Source: Cyclobacteriaceae bacterium
GTDB lineage: Bacteria > Bacteroidota > Bacteroidia > Cytophagales > Cyclobacteriaceae
Reading direction: 5' to 3'
Assembly: GCA_023151255.1 (NCBI GenBank)
Contig: JAKLJG010000003.1
Location: 248,001 to 312,000 of the forward strand
Length of the DNA: 64,000 bases
Shown here: positions 1,808 through 5,991 of the stretch, piece after piece
How the letters are laid out: each line of letters starts with the position of its first letter
Position numbering within the stretch: the stretch's first letter is position 1
Program-made: the position numbers and the translations under genes
The notes under the pieces: generated by a model
Databases searched by the model: none
What the model saw: the letters and a program-made list of their open reading frames with translations, nothing else
Told to the model about the DNA's origin: nothing

Positions 1808-2473
1808 TTAAACGGCCGGAGGCTGGTTTTCGGGGGAGTTGTTCAAAACCGGTTGTTGTTTTTCAGCAGGGAAGGCATCAGCAGGGTCTTTGGCGTCTTC
1901 ACTATGTTTGAAGAACCGCTTCTGCATAATCAGGATGGTGACAACGCCAATGAAGATTGAAGAGTCGGCAATGTTGAACACCGGACTGAAAAATAAAAAG
2001 TGTTGCCCGCCTACAAAGGGCACCCACTCGGGCCAGAAGAATTCAAACAGCGGAAAGAACAGCATATCAATAACCTGCCCGTGAAACCACGGAGTAGGTG
2101 CATCAGCAGGGGCGTTGTTCAGCAATACGCCAAAAAAGGTGCTGTCTATAACGTTGCCCACAGCACCGCCTAATATCAGGCCCATGCACCATAAAAATCC
2201 GGGGTGGGCATTCCGTGCGGCCATCTTCCATAAGTAGTAGCCGATACCAAACATGGCGCCTATGCGGAAAATAGTCAGGGCCAGTTTGCCGAATTCATTT
2301 TCCCAACGGATGCCGAAGGCCATGCCGGGGTTGAGCAGGTAATGCAGCCGGAACCAGTCGCCAATAACGTTGATTTCTTCGTGCAACTCCATATTATTAA
2401 ACACCAGCATTTTGGAAGTCTGGTCGATGACAATCACAACAAAGGCCAGTAGAAAATATTTTTGTGCTTTCAT
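1808..2473 (-). CDS. lspA: Lipoprotein signal peptidase II with C-terminal extension
   Basis: 'VVIVIDQTSKMLV', 'GGAVGNVIDS' and 'FNIADSSIFIG' catalytic motifs; start overlaps ileS stop (TAATG). Confidence 0.93.
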   Translation of the reverse strand: MKAQKYFLLAFVVIVIDQTSKMLVFNNMELHEEINVIGDWFRLHYLLNPGMAFGIRWENEFGKLALTIFRIGAMFGIGYYLWKMAARNAHPGFLWCMGLILGGAVGNVIDSTFFGVLLNNAPADAPTPWFHGQVIDMLFFPLFEFFWPEWVPFVGGQHFLFFSPVFNIADSSIFIGVVTILIMQKRFFKHSEDAKDPADAFPAEKQQPVLNNSPENQPPAV

Positions 2474-5400
2474 TACCTGATGAGGCTGATTTTTACATTA
2501 AGTTTAAAGTCATCCATATCCACTTCTGCCGCATCCGGTATCTGATCCTTCAGTTCTAACCGAATAGCTTGGGTTTCGGTGCGGATATAATCGCTGTATT
2601 GCGTTAATGCCGAAGCGACCGTTTCACCGTTTCGCTCCACTTCAATTGTTATTTTATCGAGCACGGCAAAGCCCATGTCTTTGCGCAGGTTTTGCACGCG
2701 GTTTACGAAGTCGCGCGCAATGCCCTCACGCTTCAATTCGTCAGTAAGGGTAATGTCGAGGGCTACCGTCAGGTCGTTATCGGTGGCAACCGACCAGCCC
2801 GGAATGTCTTCGGAGGAGATCAGCACATCATCGAGCACCAAATTAAAACCCTCTTTCAACAGGGCGCCTTGCTTTTCGATTTGCTGAATGTCGGCCTGGG
2901 TAAAGGAGTTAATTACGGCCGCCACCTCTTTCATCCTCGGGCCGTACTGCCTGCCGAGTTTGGCAAAATTTGGTTTTGCTTTTTTTGTAACCAGCCCGGT
3001 GGTGTCGTCAATGTATTCGATGTGCTTGATGTTCACTTCAGCCTTTATAATTTCTTCTACGCTGCGGATGCGTTCGGCAAAACGCGGGTCGAGCACGGGT
3101 AACAGAATTTTTTGCAACGGGGTACGCACTTTTATCCTGCTGTTTTTGCGCAGCGAATGCACCAGGCTGCAGATGCGTTGCGCATAGTCCATTGAAATTT
3201 CCAGATCCATATTGCGGTGCGCCAGTTCGGGGTTAACCAGGTCAGTAAGATGAACGGATACCTGCCGCAGCGGAGTGTTGCCGGCCCTGGCCTTATCGCG
3301 GATATTGTCCGACAGGTTTTTGTAAAGCCAATCAGCGAAGAATGGCGCTATGGGTGACATGAGTTGAGCGGTAACCATCAGGCACTGATACAGGGTTTCG
3401 TAGGCCGCTTTTTTGTCTTCGGATAATTCACCGCGCAGGTTGGGTTGCCAGAAGCGTTTACGGTTTAACCGCACATACCAGTTTGATAGGTGATCGTTAA
3501 CAAACTCCTGGATGGCGCGTGCTGCGCGGGTAGGTTCATAGTCGGTATACGCTTCGGTAACTTCGGTAATCAGCGACTGCAGTTTGGAGATGATCCACTT
3601 ATCAAGATGAGTAAGTTTTTCGAACGGCACATTGTTCACCTCATCTTTTACAAAGCCGTCAATATTGGCGTAAAGGGCAAAGAAGGAGTAGGTGTTGACC
3701 AGCGTACCGAAAAACCTGCGCTGCACCTCTACAACACCATTCAGGTCGAACTTCAGGTTTTCCCAGGGTGGAGCATTTTCAACCATGTACCAGCGCACCA
3801 AATCGGGCCCGAATTGCTCGAGTGTTTCGAAGGGGTTTATAACGTTACCCAGCCGCTTCGACATTTTGTTGCCGTCTTTATCGAGCAGCAGGCCGGTGGA
3901 GATAACGTTTTTGAATGCGATGCTGTCGTAGAGCAGCACGGCAATAGCATGCAGCGTAAAAAACCAGCCGCGGGTCTGGTCAACGCCTTCCGAAATAAAA
4001 TCGGCCGGGTAGGCGCCTTTCCAGCCGTCATTGAAGGGCATCGGATCGCCCTTTTTAAGCAACTCATGATTTAATCCCCATTGAGCGTACGGCATGGCAC
4101 CCGAGTCGAACCACACATCAATCAGGTCTGGTTCGCGGTACATGGGTTTGCCCGAAGGGCTGACTAATACAATTTCATCAACATAGGGGCGGTGCAGGTC
4201 AAACACCTTCCTTAATCCACCTTTAGAGTGGGAGATTGAGGTGCCCCCTTCGAAGGAAATCGAGGGGGTGTAAACACCTGCCTTTTTTGCTTTTTCAATC
4301 TCTTCCTGAAGTTCCACTAATGAGCCGATGCACTTTTCTTCTTTGCCATCTTTTGTTCGCCAGATGGGCAATGGCGTACCCCAGTAGCGTGAGCGCGACA
4401 AATTCCAATCAACCAGGTTTTCGAGCCAGTTGCCAAAACGGCCCGTACCGGTTGATTCGGGTTTCCAGTTGATGGTTTTGTTCAGTTCGGCCATGCGCTC
4501 TTTCAATGCCGTGGTTTTGATAAACCACGAATCGAGCGGGTAGTACAGCACAGGCTTATCGGTGCGCCAGCAGTGCGGGTAGGTGTGCTCGTACTTTTCT
4601 ACTTTAAAGGCTTTGTTTTCTTCTTTCAGGATGATGGAGATGATCACATCAGTGGACTTGTAATCCGGGTGGCTCTCATCTTCATCGGTGTAATTTTTAA
4701 CGTAAAAATCGGTTTCGGTAAGGGGTTTGTGTGATTTGATTTTATATCGCTCAACGCCTTCTTTCAGTTTGCTGCCGATTTCATTTACAAATTTTCCCTT
4801 CCGGTCAACGGTGGGTACTTCGTTGCCGTTTTCATCCTTAACGGTAAGCGGAGGGATACCGTATTGTTTGGCCACGCGGAAGTCATCAGCACCAAAGGTA
4901 GGCGAAGTGTGTACCACCCCGGTACCGTCTTCGGTAGTCACAAAATCACCGGCTACTACCTTAAAGGCTTTGTCGGCATCGTACAAGGGCTGGATGTACG
5001 GCATGAGTTGTTCGTATGAAACACCGACTACTTGTTTACCGGTAAACTCCTGAACAACTTTGTACGGAATCACCTTGTCGCCCGGTTTGTAGGTTTGCAA
5101 ATCAAGGTCTTTTCCTTTTTCTGAAAAATATTTTTGTACTAAATCCTTGGCTAGTATAACGCTAACAGGCTGATGCGTGTAGGTGTTAAATGTATTTACC
5201 TGTACGTATTGAATTTTTTCGCCAACAGCCAACGCTGTATTTGAAGGCAATGTCCATGGAGTGGTGGTCCAGGCGAGAATGAACACCCCCCTCAGTCCCC
5301 CCTCAAGGGGGGTGTACAAAAACTCCGACTTCGCATCGCGTTTCACTTTAAACTGCGCGACCACCGAAGTGTCCTTCACAGTTTTATAGGTGCCAGGCAA

Positions 5401-5991
5401 ATTCAGCTCGTGCGAACTTAATCCAGTGCCGGCCGCGGGCGAGAAGGGCTGGATGGTGTACCCTTTGTACAGCAGGCCTTTTGTGTAGAACTGTTTCAGT
5501 ATCCACCACAGTGTTTCGATGTAGTTGGAATCGTAGGTGATGTACGGATCATCCAGGTCAACCCAATAGCCCATCTTCATAGTCAGGTCGTCCCACTGAT
5601 CCTTATACATCATCACCGTTTCTTTGCACTTGCGGTTGTATTCTTCAATCGAGATTTTTTTGCCGATGTCGTCTTTGGTAATGCCCAGTTGTTTTTCAAC
5701 CTGCAGTTCAACGGGCAGGCCGTGGGTATCCCATCCGCCTTTGCGTTTTACCTGGTAGCCCTGCAGGGTTTTAAACCGGCAGAAGATGTCTTTAATGGTG
5801 CGGGCCATTACGTGGTGAATGCCGGGTGTGCCGTTGGCCGAGGGGGGGCCTTCGTAAAACGTAAAAGTTGGAGCACCTTCGCGGTTAGCTACCGACTGCT
5901 CAAAGATTTTTTCGGATTTCCAGAAATTCAGGATATCGGAAGCCAGTTGGGCGTAGTTCAGGTTTGCAGGTTCCTTATAGGTTTTTGCCAT
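2473..5991 (-). CDS. ileS: Isoleucyl-tRNA synthetase
   Basis: 1172 aa; 'PPSANGTPGIHHVMARTIKDIFCRF' and KMSKR motif; 'AWTTTPWTLPSNTALAVG'. Confidence 0.97.
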   Translation of the reverse strand: MAKTYKEPANLNYAQLASDILNFWKSEKIFEQSVANREGAPTFTFYEGPPSANGTPGIHHVMARTIKDIFCRFKTLQGYQVKRKGGWDTHGLPVELQVEKQLGITKDDIGKKISIEEYNRKCKETVMMYKDQWDDLTMKMGYWVDLDDPYITYDSNYIETLWWILKQFYTKGLLYKGYTIQPFSPAAGTGLSSHELNLPGTYKTVKDTSVVAQFKVKRDAKSEFLYTPLEGGLRGVFILAWTTTPWTLPSNTALAVGEKIQYVQVNTFNTYTHQPVSVILAKDLVQKYFSEKGKDLDLQTYKPGDKVIPYKVVQEFTGKQVVGVSYEQLMPYIQPLYDADKAFKVVAGDFVTTEDGTGVVHTSPTFGADDFRVAKQYGIPPLTVKDENGNEVPTVDRKGKFVNEIGSKLKEGVERYKIKSHKPLTETDFYVKNYTDEDESHPDYKSTDVIISIILKEENKAFKVEKYEHTYPHCWRTDKPVLYYPLDSWFIKTTALKERMAELNKTINWKPESTGTGRFGNWLENLVDWNLSRSRYWGTPLPIWRTKDGKEEKCIGSLVELQEEIEKAKKAGVYTPSISFEGGTSISHSKGGLRKVFDLHRPYVDEIVLVSPSGKPMYREPDLIDVWFDSGAMPYAQWGLNHELLKKGDPMPFNDGWKGAYPADFISEGVDQTRGWFFTLHAIAVLLYDSIAFKNVISTGLLLDKDGNKMSKRLGNVINPFETLEQFGPDLVRWYMVENAPPWENLKFDLNGVVEVQRRFFGTLVNTYSFFALYANIDGFVKDEVNNVPFEKLTHLDKWIISKLQSLITEVTEAYTDYEPTRAARAIQEFVNDHLSNWYVRLNRKRFWQPNLRGELSEDKKAAYETLYQCLMVTAQLMSPIAPFFADWLYKNLSDNIRDKARAGNTPLRQVSVHLTDLVNPELAHRNMDLEISMDYAQRICSLVHSLRKNSRIKVRTPLQKILLPVLDPRFAERIRSVEEIIKAEVNIKHIEYIDDTTGLVTKKAKPNFAKLGRQYGPRMKEVAAVINSFTQADIQQIEKQGALLKEGFNLVLDDVLISSEDIPGWSVATDNDLTVALDITLTDELKREGIARDFVNRVQNLRKDMGFAVLDKITIEVERNGETVASALTQYSDYIRTETQAIRLELKDQIPDAAEVDMDDFKLNVKISLIR
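4201..4272 (-). repeat. In-frame palindromic repeat element (long form, 72 bp) inside ileS
   Basis: Encodes YTPSISFEGGTSISHSKGGLRKVF; outer imperfect inverted repeat ACACC(C)CC...GGAAGGTGT, internal CCTTCGAAGG palindrome and CCAC-N7-GTGG hairpin. Confidence 0.6.
5281..5316 (-). repeat. In-frame palindromic repeat element (short form, 36 bp) inside ileS
   Basis: Encodes YTPLEGGLRGVF; perfect 9-bp inverted repeat ACACCCCCC/GGGGGGTGT (5283-5291 / 5307-5315). Confidence 0.65.

Follow-up and report, generated by a model that had tools for sequence, protein, structure and literature searches.

A dispersed palindromic repeat read in frame within ileS of a Cyclobacteriaceae bacterium, with DUF559 nucleases as its putative movers

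Palindromic DNA that is read as part of protein genes has mainly been treated as a peculiarity of Rickettsia, and RAYT transposases are regarded as the likely movers of REPINs. RPE, WPE and intragenic REPs are dispersed palindromic elements that lie in frame in conserved genes, are read in several frames and form translated loops (PMC2229807; PMC3733652). REPs and REPINs with their RAYT (REPtron) are organised as inverted doublets around a spacer, with a small enzyme gene that these palindromes also bound (PMC3116915; PMC3733652). Bacterial MITEs (Correia, ERIC and similar elements) are small and non-autonomous, possess terminal inverted repeats and are in some cases fused in frame to genes (PMC2229807). 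For the CGTC repeats, it has been stated that they "apparently lack a dedicated transposase" (PMC3733652). The element described here shares these features with each of the first three groups; it is RPE-like in its behaviour and REPIN/RAYT-like in its organisation, and by its tags or its associated enzyme it is a member of neither.

The stretch analysed (the window) comprises 64,000 nucleotides (G000:C33:248001-312000) of a genome of 3.17 Mb in 44 contigs; this genome is referred to as G000, and relatives and single loci are designated by G and L numbers, respectively. On the minus strand of the window, an open reading frame without internal stop (2473..5991) encodes an isoleucyl-tRNA synthetase of 1172 amino acids, as indicated by the Pfam domains tRNA-synt_1 (6.9e-108) and Anticodon_1 and by solved IleS relatives (1e-219). 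This ileS gene hosts two inserts on the same strand, both in frame and stop-free: a 72-bp palindromic segment at 4201..4272, read as YTPSISFEGGTSISHSKGGLRKVF, and a 36-bp segment at 5281..5316, read as YTPLEGGLRGVF. The initial annotation had described the former as a palindrome translated within ileS, and its sequence, coordinates and palindrome proved correct; a direct count also reproduced the reported agreement at 15 of 21 positions between its 3′ end and the 36-bp segment. The outer arms read ACACC.../...GGTGT, i.e., terminal inverted repeats are present. The first arm, TACACCCCCTCGATTTCCTTCGAAGGGGG, occupies 4244..4272 (minus strand), as judged against the arm consensus of the repeat family; the second, inverted arm, CTCCCACTCTAAAGGTGGATTAAGGAAGGTGTTT, occupies 4201..4234 (minus strand) and contains a match to the arm model at 4202-4231.

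When searched against its own genome at the nucleotide level, the 72-mer found no second copy, and the repeat family was therefore built from the 36-mer instead. The perfect inner palindrome CCTTCGAAGG, which had been singled out initially, is present but by itself within chance expectation (2 window matches with at most one mismatch versus 1.5 expected), and the same loop in many species holds unrelated repeats with a period of 7. These observations would suit a chance palindrome or a local loop expansion unrelated to any genomic repeat, a reading that is nevertheless very improbable: aligned with a full-length family copy upstream of queG, the 72-mer scored 41 and 27 in its two orientations, which exceeds all of 2000 mononucleotide shuffles (mean -13.6, sd 8.1, maximum 17). 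A covariance model of the arm detected one arm of 4201-4272 (E=0.46) and both arms of the 72-bp insert that the close relative G005 carries at this site of IleS (E=0.04 and 0.07). Folding of the DNA gave z-scores of -2.0 with the 72-mer and -3.0 with the 36-mer, compared to -5.8 with the full-length copy that is best preserved. The beyond-chance evidence for the 72-mer rests on the repeat family. Because of the alignment score and the two-armed insert in G005, 4201-4272 is a decayed, two-armed palindromic repeat copy of full length, and 5281-5316 is the short, three-block form. The two IleS copies are thus a full-length and a shortened version of one element, which goes beyond what had been noticed initially.

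Full-length elements consist of two inverted arms and a spacer of ~11-16 nt, amounting to 71-75 bp in total, and shortened copies retain three or four blocks. Each arm comprises a hairpin and a second G-block ending in GGTGTT; the consensus derived from aligned copies is AACACCCCCCTTAATCCCCCCTCAAGGGGGG. Copies in the own genome were counted from sequence searches. The 36-mer yielded 16 further matches (best E 9e-8), and the spaced pattern CCCCCTTGAGGGGG-N5-AGGGGG (three mismatches at most) matched 18 times in the 3.17-Mb genome (some matches overlap, leaving ~15 sites) compared to 0 for the reversed pattern, which served as control. With the arm covariance model, 29 matches were obtained that merge to ~19 sites, the best in the genome being the 36-bp element at 5281-5316 (E 4e-9). 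Three relatives from the genus contain 18-31 model matches each (G014, 31; G005, 25; G001, 18), the other 13 genomes contain 0-4, and at family level matches occur in 25 of 118 genomes. It is practically certain that a dispersed family of in-frame palindromes exists, and the initial proposal of a small family of coding-tolerant repeats is borne out, with copies both in and between genes.

Nine of the ~19 own-genome sites lie in frame inside conserved proteins (IleS twice, AspS, RadA, MetH, a DnaE-like polymerase, an Lhr-like helicase, a nucleotidyltransferase and a methyltransferase), seven lie at ends, signal peptides or junctions, and three are intergenic; the names of host genes were read from their sequences, with a Pfam check for IleS and DUF559. 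Copies have thereby become dispersed over the genome, for the most part in genes for proteins. Since coding sequence makes up ~0.90 of the window and most copies are genic, a strong avoidance of genes is absent, unlike in REPs; clearly intergenic positions account for only ~3 of 19 sites. As in RPE, the palindromic repeat has in-frame copies in conserved genes that are unrelated to each other, namely at the nine interior sites. Orthologues free of the element are found for AspS in G014 and G009 and for RadA and MetH in G001, G009 and G016, element-free IleS loops also occur in relatives, and IleS of G001 has a third element site that is missing in other species. The likeness to Rickettsia palindromic elements that had been suggested initially holds in behaviour.

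Depending on the gene, the element DNA is read as NTPLNPPSRG, TPPLIPPQGG, HPPLSPLKGG or PLEGGLRGV. As one DNA is read as different peptides, selection acts on the keeping of the frame and not on a particular peptide. At L259 (G014) and L266 (G005), the element forms the C-terminal tail of a carbamoyltransferase-like protein ahead of argB and supplies the overlapping stop/start GTATGA of that next gene. Protein-level selection for a functional peptide or a structural loop conserved in IleS would be suggested by the related peptides PLxGGxRGVY found at the 36-bp site in several species of the genus. This reading is scarcely credible, however, given that the element DNA is used in different frames in different genes, that most IleS orthologues lack the element and that the loop formed by the 72-bp insert (residues 580-593) is modelled as disordered (pLDDT <50); the 36-bp site is modelled as a coil preceding a strand. 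Instead, a mobile palindrome would have been inserted into a variable IleS loop and then decayed. The open frame runs through the IleS insert. Both strands of the element can be read in several frames and its insertion keeps the frame, so that the additional disordered loop is probably translated and tolerated, as the intact reading frame suggests.

The IleS site itself has a varied history. Among ~90 IleS genes compared, a conserved peptide of the same length is absent, and a comparable 72-bp insert is present only in G005, whose IleS is 88% identical to that of G000. In G014, the IleS of which is 93% identical, the palindrome is absent and a different, shorter peptide takes its place, implying either a loss in G014 or two separate hits. 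At the 36-bp site, distant relatives carry other palindromes (L144, L145; in Vicingaceae L179, L188). The IleS loops thus look like recurrent landing places.

At two loci, full-length copies at one site have opposite orientations in different species. In the element beside queG, the spacer is AAATAGTACCA in G005, and in G000 this position is occupied by its reverse complement (alignment score 110 inverted, 78 direct), and the helicase copy is inverted between G000 and G014 (68 inverted, 42 direct). Flipping a palindrome need not close the frame; this agrees with a DNA element and with cruciform or end-joining events, the presumable mechanism of flipping. Reading in several frames, together with in-place inversion, implies that the unit is DNA and not a peptide motif. 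Neither this flipping nor the presence of palindromes of like design on both sides of DUF559 genes had been part of the initial annotation.

The association with DUF559 started from the observation that a small gene with this domain repeatedly adjoins elements in other genera. In a first sample, biased since the genomes had been picked because they carry elements, 9 of 38 DUF559 genes had an inverted match of at least 12 nt between their flanks, compared to 3 of 228 control windows. A class-wide set for Bacteroidia, drawn from 25 genomes, comprised 40 stand-alone DUF559 genes picked by open-frame length and rank before the flanks were viewed; top matches in open frames of 800-1500 aa had likewise been excluded beforehand as a different domain architecture. 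Inverted flank palindromes were present at 17 of these 40 genes versus 8 of 411 controls (Fisher 2e-14), the 17 loci spanning 15 genomes and loci of the same genome not being fully independent; at 15 nt, the counts were 12 and 2. More than half of the class-wide genes lack a long inverted match between their flanks, and many may therefore be solitary or decayed.

The ends of DUF559 cassettes follow one design in different letters: C-block, hairpin, G-block, a short spacer and a second G-block, usually followed by TG. Between lineages, the hairpin arms covary (94 of 98 pairs are complementary versus 55% when shuffled, for arms picked by eye from shared stretches). Palindrome types differ between DUF559 lineages, e.g., CCCCCGCTGGCGGGGG versus CCCCTCTTGAGAGGGG, and across genomes they track the sequence of DUF559 (Mantel r 0.57, 0 of 5000 permutations), a signal that would arise likewise if cassette and palindrome had descended together. 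G001, G120 and G192 each contain exactly two copies of the palindrome CCYCCGCTGGCGGRGG, one on either side of DUF559, and G117 contains a single copy, beside DUF559. G288 (contigs C84-C96) contains 38 exact copies of CCTCCGCTGGCGGAGG, many as inverted pairs ~110-135 bp apart, and two DUF559 cassettes bearing the same palindrome. Within the genus, a cognate DUF559 gene is limited to G000, G005 and G001 (66-75% identity to that of G000), three of the four copy-rich genomes, and in G000 it has the element on one side only. In all three, the ruvB-queG spacer holds DUF559 and a full-length element (L101/L310 in G000, L207 in G005, L221 in G001). The G000 element in this spacer is read through into queG. 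The same spacer in G014 (L231) has a different palindrome and no DUF559.

The DUF559 protein resembles the endonuclease-like structure 3hrl (1e-12) and weakly matches the mobile-intron protein 3r3p (I-Bth0305I; E 0.3), a Vsr-like (EDxHD) homing endonuclease. Such endonucleases are encoded within introns or next to split inteins. They share with DUF559 the tie between a small Vsr-like nuclease and mobile DNA, whereas the DUF559 gene is bounded by hairpin palindromes that are also dispersed as solo copies. No DUF559 domain was found within IleS in eight long or unmatched IleS proteins of species with a long IleS. In the parts of the literature that the search covered, no paper joined DUF559, Bacteroidetes and repeats, and co-mentions of DUF559 and palindromic appear unrelated.

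The elements could depend on a larger unit as its non-autonomous partners, comparable to MITEs or REPINs; this unit would consist of a stand-alone gene for a DUF559 nuclease (PD-(D/E)XK, Vsr-like) between inverted palindromes of the same kind. DUF559 would recognise and cut the hairpin ends, repair or copying would place palindromes at new sites, and inserted copies would then decay, shorten and flip in place. By analogy with RAYTs, which may move REPINs, DUF559 nucleases might mobilise these palindromes, a proposal to which we give slightly less than even chances; the explanation as a whole, i.e., mobile coding palindromes with DUF559 as putative mover, is moderately probable. The DUF559 model does not explain why GGTGTT faces the gene in cassettes and outward in solo elements, as if the latter were two ends placed back to back. 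DUF559 could also be cargo. A less probable but substantial alternative is that other machinery, such as other transposases or hairpin replication and repair, moves the palindromes, with DUF559 as passenger or preferred cargo. This would accommodate G014, which is copy-rich without a cognate DUF559 (a recent loss could be involved, given that its ruvB-queG spacer is without the gene), the many DUF559 genes without flanking palindromes, and RPE and CGTC repeats, which have no known enzyme (PMC3733652). It fits less well with the tracking of DUF559 sequence by palindrome type and with the three genomes in which the palindrome is confined to the DUF559 cassette. A RAYT/Y1 transposase as mover was rejected: Y1_Tnp is absent from the own genome, and in the genus Y1 does not track element number, which likewise speaks against other machinery.

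Compared to RPE, the elements with DUF559 as candidate mover are distinguished by their length of 36-75 bp, their construction from G/C blocks, their Cytophagales lineage and their DUF559-flanking relatives. Judged from the arm consensus, which ends in AACACC/GGTGTT, they have no CGTC end tag of the kind reported from R. conorii repeats. REPIN-like inverted doublets around a spacer are seen in the queG and helicase copies and in the G288 pairs. In contrast to REP/REPIN, the arm consensus is without a GTAG tag, and DUF559, a Vsr-like nuclease, stands in place of a Y1 tyrosine transposase. Unlike in MITEs, each end is itself a hairpin and no parent DDE insertion sequence was found; arm pairs 0.8-2.5 kb apart, as in insertion sequences, were absent among the own-genome model matches. 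By eye, no consistent target-site duplication was seen in orthologue comparisons, the flanks being too diverged for a firm reading. For a MITE-style autonomous parent, DUF559 genes, which have the same kind of ends, are a candidate.

If true, the mover role of DUF559 would be the part of the finding that matters most. That DUF559 proteins move palindromes throughout Bacteroidia, as a nuclease-based counterpart of REPIN/RAYT that seeds in-frame peptides in essential genes, is tentatively put forward at a little under even odds. It gives a function hypothesis for a 'protein of unknown function' family, and with a Bacteroidota lineage that has its palindromes mostly in housekeeping genes and a nuclease family that has matching palindromes around its genes throughout the class, the spread of such palindromes becomes directly testable. 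In annotation, insertions such as PLxGGxRGV or TPPLxPPQGG that look odd in proteins of Bacteroidota are explained by the repeat.

Several minor observations concern single loci. At L328 and L330, the order palindrome-DUF559-palindrome lies within a longer methyltransferase-like open frame, which measures 1546 aa at L328 and has one stop codon inside the domain at L330. In the lipoprotein signal region of G016 (L241), a period-7 run (GGTGCGC GGTTCGG GATGCGA...) occupies the site of the element in the G000 orthologue L107. The IleS loop corresponding to 4201-4272 contains, in relatives, in-frame repeats with a period of exactly 7 and varied sequence (L041, L043-L049, L052, L128, L131, L154, L174, L177, L195 and others), built from units such as ATTCAAA, AATCTCA, CAATTGA, ATGGTCC, AACACGC and GACCCAG. 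At lag 7, 18 of 71 distinct IleS loops reach at least 60% identity, compared to 0 at other lags from 3 to 12 and 0 in a control stretch.
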